The position numbers were made by a program, and so were the translations under genes. This document shows, piece by piece, positions 1,975 through 18,661 of a DNA stretch of 20,048 nt. The notes under the pieces were generated by a model. It ran no database searches. It saw nothing but the letters and a program-made list of their open reading frames with translations, and was not told the origin of the DNA. Where the stretch lies: positions 1-20,048 of the IMG/VR virus record IMGVR_UViG_3300042355_000776; one strand, written 5' to 3'. Source of the stretch: a virus. Each line of letters starts with the position of its first letter. The first letter of the stretch is position 1.

Positions 1975-3126
1975 TTAACCTACGAAGAATGAAACTGGAT
2001 CCGACGAACCAAATCCAGCAGATGTTGAGAACAGATCCTGTTCCAATTTTTCTTTTTCAGATTGACCTTGCGTCATAATATCCTGTGAAAATAATTGACC
2101 ACCAAATAATGGAACCTGCCCATATTTTCCACGGACATAACCAACGGTAATTTTCGTTAACGCTAATGCATATTGATAAACCCAAGGTTCTTTAATGATA
2201 TCACGAATCGGTCTTTCAACATAAGAAGCTAATACGCCATAAAATCTTACGGCATCTGTTGGTTCTGGATACATTCTTAGATATTGTGTTCTCTCATCAA
2301 ATTCATAACTGCGTTTAGTTGCTAAAACCTTTTCACGGGTTTCCAACCAATTTTTAACACAATACCAACTAATCAAATCAAAACCAAAATTACCCATAGC
2401 ATAACTAAAATACGTTTGTTGTGCTAATGTTTGTTCTATAGTAAACAAAGTATTGATTCCGGTTGTACTGCCTTCTTCGAAATCTGTTATAGCTATAACC
2501 TTTCTATAATCCATGACATCATAATCAAACATATTATTAAACTTTTGATTATTTGTTTGTGGATTATTTGTAGTAGCTCGATTTACTCTACTTTCTGTGA
2601 AAAGAGATGATAAAGATAATCCACCGGAAATCAAAGTGGATGACATTTCTTTATATAAAGTGCTATCTATAATTTGATTTGCAAATACACCATCGCCTAT
2701 AATTCCAGAAAGAGCAGAAGAAGATGCAAAATATGAAGATGGTATACCTGTTGTAGCGATATAAACCGTCTCCGCAGTTTCTATATATGGTCCAGTATCT
2801 CTGGAGGGGGTTTTATGTTCCAATCTTTCCATCAAAGATAGATTTGGATTTGCCAAGGTATAAAGATGATCCAATCTAATACCCGTTCCCTTTTTATAAA
2901 TTTGCGAATCGAATATCAAATATTCTTTGGTATAACCAGCATATCGAGAAAACATTTCACATGCTATTGAAATATTTTCAAATAATTGATCTTGATGAAC
3001 TTCAATAGAAATTAATGGAGCACCAAGAGATCTTACGATTCTATCAGCCAATCTAGAAAAATTATCAATTTTACTATTAAGATTCGTGCTTTGAAAAGAT
3101 GTAATAGGTGTAATAGCACATGTCAT
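1975..3126 (-). CDS. 13: neck protein gp13-like
   Basis: 383 residues, longer than the roughly 310 of T4 gp13, as in other distant T4-like phages. The N-terminal quarter (SRLADRIVRSLGAPLISIEV, then ENISIACEMFSRYAGYTKEY) is the family's helical opening. The C-terminal half holds the conserved FDLISWYCVKNWLETREK region, a YLRMYPEP strand, and a long helical segment ending GQVPLFGGQLFSQDIM, typical of gp13. In T4, gp13 and gp14 form the neck that closes the filled head and accepts the tail. It is the first gene of a unit with gp4, led by a late-type box 5 bases before its ATG. Assignment to gp13 rather than gp14 rests on the C-terminal pattern, from memory of the family. Confidence 0.8.
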   Translation of the reverse strand: MTCAITPITSFQSTNLNSKIDNFSRLADRIVRSLGAPLISIEVHQDQLFENISIACEMFSRYAGYTKEYLIFDSQIYKKGTGIRLDHLYTLANPNLSLMERLEHKTPSRDTGPYIETAETVYIATTGIPSSYFASSSALSGIIGDGVFANQIIDSTLYKEMSSTLISGGLSLSSLFTESRVNRATTNNPQTNNQKFNNMFDYDVMDYRKVIAITDFEEGSTTGINTLFTIEQTLAQQTYFSYAMGNFGFDLISWYCVKNWLETREKVLATKRSYEFDERTQYLRMYPEPTDAVRFYGVLASYVERPIRDIIKEPWVYQYALALTKITVGYVRGKYGQVPLFGGQLFSQDIMTQGQSEKEKLEQDLFSTSAGFGSSDPVSFFVG

Positions 3127-3131
3127 GCTAT

Positions 3132-3137
3132 TATTTA
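3132..3137 (-). promoter_or_regulatory. late-type promoter box for gp13-gp4
   Basis: The minus strand reads GCTAAATAATAGC then ATG (3126). The TAAATA core is 5 bases from the start codon. A nearly identical string (GCTAAATAATAAC then ATG) precedes the gene starting at 14907, so this is a reused element rather than a chance AT-rich match. Confidence 0.65.
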
Positions 3138-3143
3138 GCTATA

Positions 3144-4952
3144 TTAAGCTTCTGGTGCTGGTTGTGGCGTTGTACCACCGGGAGTTGGTGTTTCTGGAGG
3201 TGTTTCAGCACCACCAGCTGCTTCTGGTTCTGCCGCAGGTCCACCAGTAAACGGTGGAGGTGTACCACTACCACCTAAAGATCCCCCGCCTCCACCACCC
3301 CCACCTCCTGCTTCCGCTTCAGCAGGAGCAGCACCACCCGCCGCTTGTGCTTCTAATTGTTCTTTCCAATTAGGTCCAGCGGATTCAATCTGTGCCAATT
3401 CCCATCTAAATGCTTTGTCTTTTCTTAAGAATTCTCTATTGGCTTTGATATCAACATCAGACCAACCCAGATATCTCTTTTGAGCATATGATGGTGATAC
3501 ACTTTCATTTGAGGTAATATTAGAGAAATTGTTTAGTTTCAATTCAAGTTTTTGACTTTCTCTCATTTCATAGAAATTGGTCGGAACATTAAATTCAATT
3601 TCTATGTTTTGCTCTGATAAATCAAATTTATCCCACAATCCGGTCAATTGTAAATGTGTAATAAATCCATTTTTAATTCCACTCGCAAATAGTTGTTGTA
3701 GACGAATTATGAATTTTGCAAATTTTAATTCTTCTCTCAACATATCAGCACCATCTCTGAATGCATCTTGTGGATCTAGACGAGTTGTGGGGACTTTTAA
3801 TGCTTGATATAATTTTTTAACGAAATACATCAAGTCTGTTAATTCACCCAAATTAGCACCACCAGCTAATTGAGTGACACTGGTTCCTTCAGAACCTGCT
3901 CTTTTCGCAAACCAGAAATTATCCAATAAAGACTGTGGATTAAACTTCTGTGCAATACCTCCTTGATTCACATCAAATGTTTTAGAAGACCAGAACTGAG
4001 ACATCAATTTTCTGAGATATGATTCTGCTTTAGGTGCTGGCATATTACCAACATCAACATTAAACACTAATCTCTCAGGTGCTCTGGCTAATCTATAGAT
4101 TACTATAGAATCTTCGATCATTGATAATTGTCGATATGCACGTCTAGCATTTTCCAAAAATGGAACACGCATCGTTTTACTTTCATTCCATACATCGGAA
4201 TGAATGTACGTGACCTGATTTTTATCCATCGGGATATAATCAACACCAATCTGTTTTAATGGATTATTTGGATCGAATTTGGGTTTTCTATAAAGAAACC
4301 CTTTGACCATAACATTCTGGATGTTCGAAAATACGGGATCTACAATTTCGGTTGGTATCTGAACGACACCCAATATTCCTTTATCAACATGTTTTTTGTG
4401 AATAATGTGTTCCCAATATATCTCTCCTTCGGTAAGGAGTTGTCTAAAATATGACCATCCTTTGTGTTCGAAATCGAAATAATTAGCGAACTTATAAAAC
4501 TCTTTGTTGAGTGTGGTTGTCTCGTAATCTGATAATTTTTTGTCTCGATATTTAATATTCAAACAACTACCAGTAAACGAATCGATATTTATAATTTCAT
4601 CGCAAATCTCGTCCAACGCATTCGAAACTTCTGCGAATGCTGCCATTACTCTATAGTCTCTAATTCTTGCAAATTTATCCTTTTGGATATTTGCATACAT
4701 TATCTGGTTGTATCTGTTATCCGAAAATACACCAGCAACAGATTGATTGTTATAATCAAAATTTTGAGAAATGGAATGCTTGGATAAAACCTCTGATCTT
4801 CTCGAACCAGTTTCTTCGAAATATTTGTATTTCGGATTTAGGTTATCAGCCTCTACATATGATCCAACTCCGGAATAAGGAAGTTTTGATGAGATATAAC
4901 TCATCAATTCTCTTCCAAAAGTCGAACTTTTACCATCGTCAAAATTATTCAC
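3144..4952 (-). CDS. 20: portal vertex protein gp20
   Basis: 602 residues against about 524 in T4 gp20. The body matches T4-type portals: FARIRDYRVMAAFAEVSNAL then a DEICDEII helix near residues 92-122, the WEHIIHKK region, YRLARAPERLVFNVDVGNMP (about 285-304), then KLMSQFWSSKTFD and an LKVPTTRLD loop followed by the long stem helix. The dodecameric portal nucleates head assembly and is the channel for DNA packaging. The last 70 or so residues are an unusual low-complexity tail rich in Gly, Ala, Pro and Glu, including a run of nine Gly, and explain the extra length. The start is GTG with no Shine-Dalgarno. An in-frame ATT lies one codon earlier, at the exact 5-base distance from a TAAATA box. 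Confidence 0.95.
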   Translation of the reverse strand: MNNFDDGKSSTFGRELMSYISSKLPYSGVGSYVEADNLNPKYKYFEETGSRRSEVLSKHSISQNFDYNNQSVAGVFSDNRYNQIMYANIQKDKFARIRDYRVMAAFAEVSNALDEICDEIINIDSFTGSCLNIKYRDKKLSDYETTTLNKEFYKFANYFDFEHKGWSYFRQLLTEGEIYWEHIIHKKHVDKGILGVVQIPTEIVDPVFSNIQNVMVKGFLYRKPKFDPNNPLKQIGVDYIPMDKNQVTYIHSDVWNESKTMRVPFLENARRAYRQLSMIEDSIVIYRLARAPERLVFNVDVGNMPAPKAESYLRKLMSQFWSSKTFDVNQGGIAQKFNPQSLLDNFWFAKRAGSEGTSVTQLAGGANLGELTDLMYFVKKLYQALKVPTTRLDPQDAFRDGADMLREELKFAKFIIRLQQLFASGIKNGFITHLQLTGLWDKFDLSEQNIEIEFNVPTNFYEMRESQKLELKLNNFSNITSNESVSPSYAQKRYLGWSDVDIKANREFLRKDKAFRWELAQIESAGPNWKEQLEAQAAGGAAPAEAEAGGGGGGGGGSLGGSGTPPPFTGGPAAEPEAAGGAETPPETPTPGGTTPQPAPEA

Positions 4953-5015: not shown

Positions 5016-6095
5016 TTACAACTGGCAAAATGCAAAAAAACTGACATCACTATCCACCCCTTGTGCATAACCAACTATATTTGATAATACTATTTGAAAT
5101 TCACCGACACCACTAATCGGAGGCAACGTAACAATCATTGTGTTTTTATCCAGAATTTTGTAATTCGTATCTGGTATAGTATATCCAGAAATGGATGGAT
5201 AATATGTATAATCTAAATTAATTTCACTGGTATCGGTATTAATTGTATCCGAACTTAATATTACATTGTTTATGTCTAAAAAGTTTTTACCTAGTAAAAG
5301 AATACTACAATTCTGATCTTCATCAGAAATTATATATTCATTAAGAATATCATATAATTTAATCCCATTAGCTAATAGATATTGATTTGTTATTTCTGGT
5401 TTTCCAGTCAAAGAAACCACTTCCGTATTTCCAGTTCCGATTGCTGATAAATCACCATAATAAGAAAATGTCTTATTAATTTCATTCGTTGAATGAAAAT
5501 TGGCATCTATGAAATAGATGTTTTTATATACATCATTTGGTTCTTCTGGGAATAACCAACCCTTTATAGTAAATGATGTAGTTGCTACAAACCTTGGTTT
5601 ATTTGTTGCATCGACATCAGTTGGGTATTCTAAAGAAATAGTACCATCCCATAATACTTCAGAACGAATTTCATTTATATTAGGCAATCCAAATGCTTCT
5701 GGTATTTTCCATGAAATTATAACATACGGATTTGCATAAGGAACAAAATTCGAAATGATTTGATCTAAATCCGATTGATAAGATGCCAAAATAGACATAC
5801 TTATAGTCAGATTCACCGGAACAGGCATCCTCAAATAATGTGTAGCAGATAAACTAGTTTTTTGATAAATGTATTCGTTCTTACTAAAAACCCTAGTTTC
5901 GTCTCTATTGATACTTGTAATATTAATAGAGACCACAGGCAATGTTATATTCTGAGCTTTATTTACAATATCAAATAAAACACGTTCTTTTGGAGCATGT
6001 ACATATCTGACTTGTATTTTTTCCTTTTCTTCTCGATTCTTATTATGTCTACCAATTACAATATCATCGAATGCTGCGATGAATTGTATCAACAT
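5016..6095 (-). CDS. 15: tail sheath stabiliser / tail terminator gp15-like
   Basis: 359 residues from the first ATG. The first 180 residues follow the T4 gp15 pattern: IQVRYVHAPKERVLFDI (about 27-43), a LPVVSINIT strand, PVPVNLTISMSILASYQSDL, QIISNFVPYANPYVIISW, then a SFTIKGWLFPE strand. In T4, a gp15 ring caps the finished tail tube and sheath and joins it to the gp13/gp14 neck. The last 150 residues are beta-rich and acidic and look like an added Ig-like domain; T4 gp15 is about 272 residues. The true start is probably upstream: the frame stays open to 6155, a strong GGGAGG lies at 6141-6146, and translation from an ATA at 6129-6131 adds 12 residues (INARAFHFEIQD) that bring the N-terminus to the T4 length. 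See findings. Confidence 0.8.
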   Translation of the reverse strand: MLIQFIAAFDDIVIGRHNKNREEKEKIQVRYVHAPKERVLFDIVNKAQNITLPVVSINITSINRDETRVFSKNEYIYQKTSLSATHYLRMPVPVNLTISMSILASYQSDLDQIISNFVPYANPYVIISWKIPEAFGLPNINEIRSEVLWDGTISLEYPTDVDATNKPRFVATTSFTIKGWLFPEEPNDVYKNIYFIDANFHSTNEINKTFSYYGDLSAIGTGNTEVVSLTGKPEITNQYLLANGIKLYDILNEYIISDEDQNCSILLLGKNFLDINNVILSSDTINTDTSEINLDYTYYPSISGYTIPDTNYKILDKNTMIVTLPPISGVGEFQIVLSNIVGYAQGVDSDVSFFAFCQL

Positions 6096-6140
6096 GTCTT
6101 GAATTTCGAAATGGAATGCTCTAGCGTTTATAACAATAAT

Positions 6141-6158
6141 CCTCCCAGCTAATATTTA
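6141..6158 (-). promoter_or_regulatory. late-type box followed by a strong Shine-Dalgarno for gp15
   Basis: On the minus strand GATAAATA (TAAATA core at 6153-6158) is followed by TTAGCT and then GGGAGG (6141-6146). No ATG, GTG or TTG in frame follows at ribosome distance; the in-frame codons after it are ATT, ATT, GTT, ATA and AAC. The box overlaps the region just past the helicase stop. This is one of only two late units here with a leader. Confidence 0.6.
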
Positions 6159-7781
6159 TCAAACGAATCTTTTGAGGAAGTATTTAGGTAGCTTATCTTT
6201 GTTTTTTAATACCGAATCGGTTATGGATGCATCCATTATGTAAGTCACACACTTATCCTTTTCAGATCTAACACCTCTACCACATGCTTGAATTAGATTA
6301 TTCAACATTTTATTCAAATACCAAACGGGATCATCCTTGAACAATTTCTTGATTCTTTCATCTCCTAATGGTAGCCATGCCGCTTTCATTATAATCTGAA
6401 ATCTAGCCAAGTCCTCTTTTAAATCGATACCATATGTCAATGAAGGACTCACCAAAATAGTGTTTTCGTCAGATTCGTAATGTTGCTTCAATATTTGCTC
6501 GTTATTGCAACCGGGAACTCGAAATAGAAACCTAGAATCTTTTATATTTTCTTTTAAAAATTCCGTTATTTCCATGGTGTGTGTATGGATGATTCCCTTC
6601 ACATCTTTATGATAATCACATATTTTTTTGACCTGTGATTTTAGATTTGGTAGTTGTTCTTTCAGATTTTTGTAATTCAACCTGACTTTTGTTGTTGATA
6701 GAATCGGCGCGTTCTTTGGATTGAATGTAGAATCAACTTCAATATATTCATAATCATCAATACCCAATGTTTTCGCAAAATGTTTGTGATCGATGATGGT
6801 AGCAGACATCAGCAATATTTTTTCACCATATGCAAATATATGTTTGGACAAAGTATCCACCTTTAATGGTTTTAATGTTATTTCATTTTGCGTTTTTTCT
6901 ATCAAATATTCGCAAGAGTTCCATGTCTCAATTGTTGTCTTGAGAGACATAAACAAGTTATTATACAACGAATACCTTTGCAATTCCGATACTGGTATAT
7001 CATTTTTCTTTCGAGATAAGTTTTTCTTGATTGAATCAATTTCGGTGTTCAACTTAATAATTAAGTTGTTTAACCAAACATGAAATTTTGTATAATCCGA
7101 TATCGGTATTCCCAAAATAGGAATATCCAATTTTTTTAGTATTTTCAGATTTATACTCCTACTGAATCTTTTGATTAGTTCATCTTCAATCTCGGAAGCT
7201 TCATCACATATGATAAATTCTCTTTTCTTGACATGATCTGGCAAAGACAAAAACATGCTATAATTCAAAACACCAAATCTACTAACTAACAATTCTTTTC
7301 TGGAATTGTAATATGGACATACGGAGTTTGCTATGCATTTGTCCTTCAATTTGGAATCGAAAACACATGGAGCTACTTCAACTTCAAATCTAGGGTCTAC
7401 AGCACAAATGTAATTACGTTTACCTTTTAAAAGATTAGCATCGTCAAATGTTTCTTTATATTGATCTTGCAATCCTTTGGTTATAGTCAAAGCAAAAGCA
7501 CCAAATTCTGGTTCTGCAATACAATCAGATGCTCTATAATATTCACCAAACTGATCAATAGCAAATGCTTCATTACTTTCTATCAAGTATTTGTATTCTT
7601 GTGATGGAGTTTTACTCGCATTCCCTAAAGTTTTTGACAAAAAACTTTTACCACTCCCTGTTGGAGCACAACATATGACATATCGTTTTCCTTTGTCAAA
7701 GGCAGCATCGATCCTAGATAGCAATTCCTCTTGTTGTTTTAGTGGGGTAAAATTTTCCGGAAATTTATCGATTAGATTCAC
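6159..7781 (-). CDS. XPD/DinG-type superfamily 2 helicase with a four-cysteine iron-sulphur motif
   Basis: 540 residues. Walker A is APTGSGKS (39-46), motif II is DEAS (193-196, a DEAH-box variant), motif III is SATI (326-329), and motif VI is QACGRGVR (498-505). Between motifs Ia and II four cysteines at 126, 139, 149 and 155, the last followed by PYY, have the spacing style of the 4Fe-4S domain of XPD, Rad3 and DinG helicases, which unwind DNA 5' to 3'. An insertion of about 50 residues (about 52-95) separates Walker A from motif Ia (ALTITKG), longer than usual. A DNA repair or replication role is inferred. The start is GTG without Shine-Dalgarno; the upstream frame is closed by a TGA with no better start. 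It begins 31 bases after the preceding gene and ends right before the gp15 promoter. Confidence 0.85.
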   Translation of the reverse strand: MNLIDKFPENFTPLKQQEELLSRIDAAFDKGKRYVICCAPTGSGKSFLSKTLGNASKTPSQEYKYLIESNEAFAIDQFGEYYRASDCIAEPEFGAFALTITKGLQDQYKETFDDANLLKGKRNYICAVDPRFEVEVAPCVFDSKLKDKCIANSVCPYYNSRKELLVSRFGVLNYSMFLSLPDHVKKREFIICDEASEIEDELIKRFSRSINLKILKKLDIPILGIPISDYTKFHVWLNNLIIKLNTEIDSIKKNLSRKKNDIPVSELQRYSLYNNLFMSLKTTIETWNSCEYLIEKTQNEITLKPLKVDTLSKHIFAYGEKILLMSATIIDHKHFAKTLGIDDYEYIEVDSTFNPKNAPILSTTKVRLNYKNLKEQLPNLKSQVKKICDYHKDVKGIIHTHTMEITEFLKENIKDSRFLFRVPGCNNEQILKQHYESDENTILVSPSLTYGIDLKEDLARFQIIMKAAWLPLGDERIKKLFKDDPVWYLNKMLNNLIQACGRGVRSEKDKCVTYIMDASITDSVLKNKDKLPKYFLKRFV

Positions 7782-11324: not shown

Positions 11325-12152
11325 TCATTTCACTGCTTCATAATATCTGACATAATCAACCATCATTTTGACCTTGGGATTTTCTCTGGTGCCATAACCA
11401 TCTTTTGGTATTGGTCCAGACCAAAGCATGTCTTGCACTTCAGTGCTAAAAATCATGAATTGTGGTCTATGTGATATGACTTGAGTATGAGTCCATACCA
11501 ATCTCCCATCAATGTAGAATTTATAATAATCCTTGGTCCATTCCAATGCATATGTGTGGTATCCTATGCCTAAACCAAGATCTTCCGTTTCTATTCCATC
11601 CCACCCACTATTCTCACCATAATCTCCCCAGTGTAGGTTTATTGAATTTATCCCCGATATATGATTGAAATCATTATCAAAAACTCTATGTTCTACGATG
11701 TCGATTTCAACACCAGCTTTACCGGGATCATTTAATGGATTGCCTATTGTAGATGATTGCAACCAAAAATCGGAAAATGTTCCGGAATAATCCATGAAAC
11801 ATATAGAAGCTTCCCAATAACCATACGTTTTTTCAAATATACCTTCAGTTGAAATTACTCCCGTATAATGCTTACCATCAATGGTGTATGTTTTTATTAC
11901 TAAATTGCCATTCTCCAATGATACCGCTTCGGGAACATCTATAGCATGTCTTCGTTGACCCTGAGACCAATGTCTCCATTTACTTTTGTCTAATTCTATG
12001 CCATTAAAATCATCAGACCAAACCAATTTATAATTAGGTGGAGGATCGGCAGTAATATGATTAGGAATTAAAAATATAAATATTCCTATTAAAAATAGTC
12101 GAACTAATTTTGAAAAGATTTTAGCCTTTTCAAAATTTAAGTTCGTTTTCAT
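11325..12152 (-). CDS. secreted GH16 glycoside hydrolase (laminarinase/agarase-type clan)
   Basis: 275 residues. Positions 13-35 form a signal peptide: basic residues, a hydrophobic core (LFLIGIFIFLIP) and an ITA cleavage site. The mature protein opens YKLVWSDDFNG, the usual first strand of bacterial GH16 beta-jellyroll enzymes. The catalytic motif EIDIVEH contains Glu149 (nucleophile), Asp151 and Glu154 (acid/base) in the E-x-D-x-x-E order. YHTYALEW, YKFYIDG and the closing VDYVRYYE strand complete the family pattern. GH16 enzymes hydrolyse beta-1,3/1,4-glucans, agarose, carrageenan or related polysaccharides; substrate cannot be told. A phage-encoded, signal-peptide-bearing GH16 is unusual: it could clear capsule or matrix polysaccharide when cells are lysed or export it beforehand. 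It follows PhoH by 6 bases and probably shares its mRNA. Confidence 0.93.
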   Translation of the reverse strand: MKTNLNFEKAKIFSKLVRLFLIGIFIFLIPNHITADPPPNYKLVWSDDFNGIELDKSKWRHWSQGQRRHAIDVPEAVSLENGNLVIKTYTIDGKHYTGVISTEGIFEKTYGYWEASICFMDYSGTFSDFWLQSSTIGNPLNDPGKAGVEIDIVEHRVFDNDFNHISGINSINLHWGDYGENSGWDGIETEDLGLGIGYHTYALEWTKDYYKFYIDGRLVWTHTQVISHRPQFMIFSTEVQDMLWSGPIPKDGYGTRENPKVKMMVDYVRYYEAVK

Positions 12153-18127: not shown

Positions 18128-18661
18128 ATGCCTAGAAAAAAATCAATTCCAAAAGAAAGTTTAGATAATGATGATATATTAGATGATTTATTGAATGATA
18201 CGGAAGCTGTTGAATTAATAAAGCCTACAAAAAAGAATAAGCAGGATTACTATGTGGATCCTTCTAAATTTAAAGAGGAAATAGTTACTTATTATAAGAC
18301 TGGTCATTGTACAAATTATTTGGGTGATTGTCTTAATAAAATTTCACATGGGTTAAGTTATAACCCAAAATTTATTAATTATTCATACAAAGAAGAAATG
18401 GTTGGAGACGCGCTAATTAAGATGTTTAGTGCATTAAAAAGAAAGAAATATGATGTGAATAGTGAGAGTTCTCCATTTGGATATTTTACAACTATAGCAT
18501 TTCATGCATTCATAAATCGAATAAAAAAAGAAAAGAAGCATCACGAAACTTTGGTAGAATATAGAGAGAGAAAATACGAAGAAATTTTGTCCACTTCTGA
18601 AGGACATATATACGTTAAGCCAATTATTGATTCTACGGAAGAAGATGCTTTTTGTGATTGA
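18128..18661 (+). CDS. 55: late transcription sigma factor gp55
   Basis: 177 residues, near the 185 of T4 gp55. An acidic N-terminal tail (about 1-35) precedes the region-2-like core: YNPKFINYSYKEEMVGDALI (about 77-96), then SESSPFGYFTTIAFHAFINR (about 114-133) and a basic KKEKKHHETLVEYRERKYEE stretch. This matches sigma-70 region 2, the only sigma region gp55 keeps; there is no region 4, as expected for a factor that works with gp33 and the sliding clamp rather than a -35 element. In T4 it directs polymerase to TATAAATA late promoters. That box is found repeatedly in this window. The gene has an early-type promoter upstream. Confidence 0.9.
   Translation: MPRKKSIPKESLDNDDILDDLLNDTEAVELIKPTKKNKQDYYVDPSKFKEEIVTYYKTGHCTNYLGDCLNKISHGLSYNPKFINYSYKEEMVGDALIKMFSALKRKKYDVNSESSPFGYFTTIAFHAFINRIKKEKKHHETLVEYRERKYEEILSTSEGHIYVKPIIDSTEEDAFCD

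Follow-up and report, generated by a model that had tools for sequence, protein, structure and literature searches.

The window, that is the whole stretch of 20,048 nucleotides analysed here, carried on its minus strand the gene for gp15, an essential tail protein (tail sheath stabiliser or tail terminator; 5016-6131, 371 amino acids when read from an AUA codon). The helicase gene upstream (phrog_2488; 6159-7781, minus strand) lay in the same frame and ended in TGA TAA; readthrough from it into gp15 was considered unlikely because of this double stop. The portal gene (phrog_213; 3144-4952, minus strand) and the gp14-like head-tail adaptor gene Ad2 (phrog_211; 1975-3126, minus strand) were used as the first and second start-codon controls. 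A gp55-like late sigma factor gene (phrog_234, E 2.6e-27; 18128-18661, plus strand) supported the use of late promoter boxes. A glycosyl hydrolase family 16 gene was present at 11325-12152 in this T4-like phage; as a host clue it was uninformative, its nearest bacterial matches (Treponema, Spirochaetaceae, Clostridia) showing only 26-31% identity. Megablast of the contig revealed no cultured close relatives, and at the protein level the kin were distant cyanophages, two Pelagibacter phage records and one Rhizobium phage only. No gp15 relatives were found in bacterial genomes. The relative L001 shared the helicase, gp15 and portal genes of the window, with an additional helicase separating the first helicase from gp15; this 807-aa helicase-like gene (542-2965, SNF2 type by eye) stood where the window has 27 nt only.

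The minus strand from 6161 to 6093 was read directly as TGA TAA ATA TTA GCT GGG AGG ATT ATT GTT, continuing with ATA AAC GCT AGA GCA TTC CAT TTC GAA ATT CAA GAC ATG. The in-frame stop TAA was at 6158-6156, so the gp15 frame was open from 6155, as the first-pass annotation had proposed. That annotation was also correct in placing a Shine-Dalgarno sequence, GGGAGG, at 6146-6141, and an ATA 9 nt past it at 6131-6129; in finding zero in-frame ATG, GTG or TTG codons from the stop to 6095; in reading a 12-codon addition (INARAFHFEIQD, 6096-6131) ahead of the first in-frame ATG (residue 13, MLIQF; 6093-6095), which is 45 nt from GGGAGG; and in noting a late box before the Shine-Dalgarno, where we read the late-promoter-like sequence GATAAATA (6153-6160, minus strand). 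It had left the choice between ATA and an ATT at 6137-6135, 3 nt past GGGAGG. AUA is a codon that almost never serves as a start signal. In what follows, AUH stands for AUA, AUU or AUC and NTG for ATG, GTG or TTG. An out-of-frame mini-ORF, TTG TTA TAA, began 4 nt past GGGAGG in the window; it is probably due to chance, because no counterpart was found in the other AUH relatives.

In a profile search gp15 matched phrog_227 (tail sheath stabiliser) with an E value of 6.5e-18, the match starting within the extension, and a profile built from gp15 relatives matched T4 gp15 in the PDB (E 9e-7). The AlphaFold model of the 371-residue protein had a mean pLDDT of 73.8, with values of about 57 for residues 1-10 and 72 for residues 11-20. 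It was superposed on T4 gp15 in 4huh (Z 15.3, residues 7-213 on 7-219) and 4hud (Z 14.8, residues 3-213 on 3-220). Numbered from ATA, residue 3 fell on 3 and residue 7 on 7; therefore residue 1 of this reading was in register with T4 residue 1 in the superposed model, and the equal N-terminal length claimed earlier held against the solved structures. Residues 5-28 in this numbering are AFHFEIQDMLIQFIAAFDDIVIGR. The profile match, together with the modelled fold and its matching N-terminus, assigns gp15 to the T4 gp15 tail terminator family. An extra C-terminal domain (window 5016-5410, residues ~242-371) had IPT/TIG (Ig-like) matches at Z ~8, whereas T4 gp15 has 272 residues only. L224 gp15 (2501-3814) exceeded the most closely related gp15 in length by ~65 residues and had an insertion around residues 258-330.

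This register and the Shine-Dalgarno spacing both pointed to ATA, not ATT, as the start codon. Although ATT is known as a rare start codon and GGGAGG precedes it, a start there, with two residues more, is very unlikely given a spacing of 3 nt only and the alignment of residue 1 of the relatives and of T4 to ATA. Even less probable, to the point of near-exclusion, is a true start at the ATG at 6095 with the Shine-Dalgarno before it idle. This ATG is the first canonical in-frame start, and an internal ATG occupies the same column in many marine relatives; however, position 0 holds a normal start codon in nearly all of these, and in several AUH relatives the column contains no start codon. Starting at 6095 would lose conserved residues, part of the first modelled helix (residues 10-19, which begins within the extension and spans residue 13) and the beginning of the phrog_227 match, with the Shine-Dalgarno too distant, so this ATG was rejected as the main start.

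In each gp15 relative examined, the start codon aligned with the window ATA, showing that the relatives start exactly at this position, and the extension was similar among them (I-N-A-R-A-F-H-F-E-I-Q-D in the window versus M-Y-N-H-G-Y-Y-F-E-L-Q-D in a relative). The best full-length relative (L001/L003) had MYNHGYYFELQD opposite the window INARAFHFEIQD, with its ATG precisely over ATA. When 366 loci were reduced to 206 distinct homologues (another count covered 169 distinct), the codons at position 0 were ATG in 85, GTG in 73, TTG in 34, ATC in 6, ATT in 5 and ATA in 3, and nothing else. By contrast, many synonymous codons occurred in other hydrophobic gp15 columns, and, in another gene, a hydrophobic internal column two codons past the start contained GTA 48, ATA 31, GTC 10, ATT 9 and GTT 8 times. 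Position 0 of gp15 is therefore occupied by start codons, ATA, ATT and ATC among them. Searches with patterns beginning with I are biased toward AUH; they contributed zero new AUH sequences. A portal-anchored set, blind to the gp15 start, had AUH in 3 of 48. When IMG/VR was searched for the extension with degenerate DNA, nothing was found. A second candidate gene with AUH and a Shine-Dalgarno (homologues of window 8153-8533 in L161 and L173) was discarded; its real start was a GTG two codons upstream, and the column became a negative control.

Shine-Dalgarno sequences were present in 8 of 15 AUH gp15 genes (7 of 14 relatives, and the window) versus 1 of 192 NTG gp15 genes, the sole SD-like motif among the latter being a GAGG ~14 nt from ATG. 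Fisher's test gave p 8e-10, a value computed over related sequences and underlain by 4 independent gains. On the gp15 tree (131 proteins, residue 1 left out) each of these 4 gains was in an AUH lineage, and a kinship-aware sign test (4 to 0) gave p 0.125, the lowest value attainable with 4 independent gains. Strong Shine-Dalgarno sequences were nearly absent upstream of the control genes as well (portal, 1 of 155 placed; Ad2, 0 of 127). Spacing was GGGAGG-N9-AUA in the window, at the long end of the set, and AGGAGG-N5 to N8 in the relatives. Seven AUH sequences, six AUC and one AUA (L208), had no Shine-Dalgarno, indicating that compensation by this element is not universal. The best reading of these comparisons is that a strong Shine-Dalgarno would offset the very weak start codon in AUH lineages. 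The window pattern exceeds chance: the N-termini of the relatives are all homologous to its extension, and a Shine-Dalgarno of such strength is almost never seen upstream of the genes compared.

The same counts bear on a possible assembly error or minority variant at 6129, with ATG as the true codon at 6131-6129. The window is one metagenomic contig only, and our search found no close kin of this phage, which would favour such an error. However, independent assemblies of other lineages have ATA, ATT or ATC at the same position, and the window Shine-Dalgarno itself predicts an AUH start, given its rarity before NTG codons. We regard an error as highly improbable, because in relatives a Shine-Dalgarno of this kind precedes ATA or ATT, and nearly none of those with a normal start have one.

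By their names, the contigs with AUH gp15 relatives came from 19 other metagenomes, and in several cases the same or a near-identical AUH phage had been assembled separately (for example, AUC start in 3300005747, 3300044723 and 3300044724; AUU start in 3300009161 and 3300009182). On the gp15 tree, 7 changes between AUH and NTG were required. In L207, L208, L209, L218, L227, L235 and L152 the next in-frame ATG, GTG or TTG was codon 51 or 101. Over codons 2-50 the pairs compared had pN of 0.03-0.14 against pS of 0.43-0.82, a sign of strong purifying selection, indicating that the region ahead of any ordinary start codon is translated. On sequence grounds, AUH starts at gp15 are thus real and recurrent in this uncultivated T4-like group and not a lone oddity. 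In the AUC-start genes of L043 (3815), L068 (3813) and L150 (1662) an out-of-frame ATG was observed 4 nt before AUC (ATGTATC); for this clade, a +1 slip directly after AUG is an alternative to initiation at AUC.

In T4 the late box occupies -13 to -6 (PMC1524935), and a TAAATA box was found upstream of most gp15 relatives. The +1 predicted from the late-promoter-like box of the window is near 6147, immediately followed by GGGAGG, so that the predicted leader would be ~16 nt long with the Shine-Dalgarno at its extreme 5' end. The distance from box end to start codon was 5-6 nt in 116 of 127 Ad2 genes, 56 of 73 GTG gp15 genes and 6 of 6 AUC gp15 genes (62 of 79 for GTG or AUC), which predicts leaderless or near-leaderless late mRNAs in the group. 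At window 3120-3140, as in the Ad2 relatives, a TAAATA late box ended 5-6 nt before ATG. The box was 15-27 nt from the start in the class with AUU or AUA and a Shine-Dalgarno, and in L209, L218, L235 and L224 AGGAGG started at or beside the predicted +1. A broader reading, in our view quite unlikely, is that most late mRNAs of the group are leaderless and SD-independent, that AUA or AUU with a 5'-end AGGAGG shunts gp15 into an SD-dependent, IF3-sensitive pathway, and that sister lineages start leaderless at AUC or AUA. If true, initiation would occur directly at AUC or AUA on leaderless mRNAs, which textbook rules hardly allow.

Taken as a whole, the best explanation, which we hold with high confidence, is that gp15 starts at AUA, with GGGAGG positioning the 30S subunit and offsetting the weak codon, and with low synthesis as the proposed outcome. 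Late transcription would probably begin at ~6147, the strong Shine-Dalgarno in the short leader would place the 30S subunit, and the ordinary initiator fMet-tRNA would read AUA despite the third-position mismatch; no phage tRNA to explain AUA decoding was found in the window. Unusual RNA folding that might hide the start was not detected (z-scores -0.33 to 1.92). The weak start codon would then keep gp15 synthesis low. T4 gp15 forms a hexameric ring, with six copies per tail (PMC3004832). In the same genomes and behind the same promoter type, ATG was the start codon in only 85 of 206 gp15 genes, versus 127 of 127 Ad2 and 143 of 155 portal genes (the other 12 being GTG), and the simplest reading of this difference is selection for a low gp15 initiation rate. 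The gp15 of the group has shifted repeatedly to weak starts (GTG, TTG, AUH), and in AUH lineages a strong Shine-Dalgarno would have arisen to compensate. Start codons are usually discriminated by IF3 (PMC10158994; PMC5472188), which may be the agent here too. A regulated rather than merely weak AUH start, gp15 being turned on late by a change in IF3 level or in the ribosome during infection, would be compatible with the AUA start. IF3 represses rare starts elsewhere (sigR GTC, PMC5472188; S. aureus infC AUA, likely autoregulated, PMC13009471), and strong Shine-Dalgarno sequences are exceptional in these phages. However, neither IF3 nor any ribosomal protein was recognised in the scanned window proteins, and we consider such regulation unlikely.

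AUH starts with a strong Shine-Dalgarno are already known in bacteria; new here is their recurrence at phage gp15. E. coli infC starts at AUU. In S. aureus, infC (AUA), ccpN (AUA) and cvfC1 (AUU) have rare starts with extended Shine-Dalgarno sequences, and in poor medium reporters of cvfC1, ccpN and citZ reached ~10% of the output from AUG (PMC13009471). Like window gp15, infC of both species, ccpN and cvfC1 have an AUA or AUU start directed by a strong Shine-Dalgarno; output in these cellular cases is weak relative to AUG, as is proposed by analogy for gp15. However, they are cellular and mostly regulatory genes, whereas gp15 encodes a structural part of the virion and its start codon has switched repeatedly from one lineage to another, in genomes otherwise seemingly without Shine-Dalgarno sequences. 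Streptomyces sigR offers an analogy in that its noncanonical start sets stoichiometry, as may be the case for gp15, but its codon is GTC rather than AUH, and IF3 repression has been demonstrated there (PMC5472188). Among phages, we sought an AUH precedent in SPP1 and found AUG, UUG and GUG starts only. Nivinskas et al. reportedly described, in 1992, an internal AUU start in T4 gene 26. As an AUU start within a tail gene of T4 it is akin to the gp15 case, although it is a secondary start in a baseplate gene, whereas AUA would be the main start of gp15. The gp15 proteins of T4 and the cyanophages share family and fold with window gp15, but in the records checked (four from cyanophages, one from a Rhizobium phage) the homologous position is ATG.

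The repeated shifts to AUA, AUU or AUC at one structural gene, often with gain of a Shine-Dalgarno, amount to a series of natural experiments, informing on how start codon and ribosome-binding site are traded off in setting the dose of a six-copy virion part. Common gene finders accept only ATG, GTG and TTG and would therefore cut 12 to ~100 residues off these gp15 proteins. Separately, the annotated gp15 starts of Cyanophage P-RSM6 (L380, NC_020855) and Syn30 (L381, NC_021072) lay dozens of codons past an in-frame ATG that is conserved and corresponds by homology to residue 1, and both genes look truncated as annotated. In L048 (contig 3300009512) codon 16 of gp15 was an in-frame TAA in an otherwise intact gene (KDLLT*FVAAF), either an error or a real nonsense variant.
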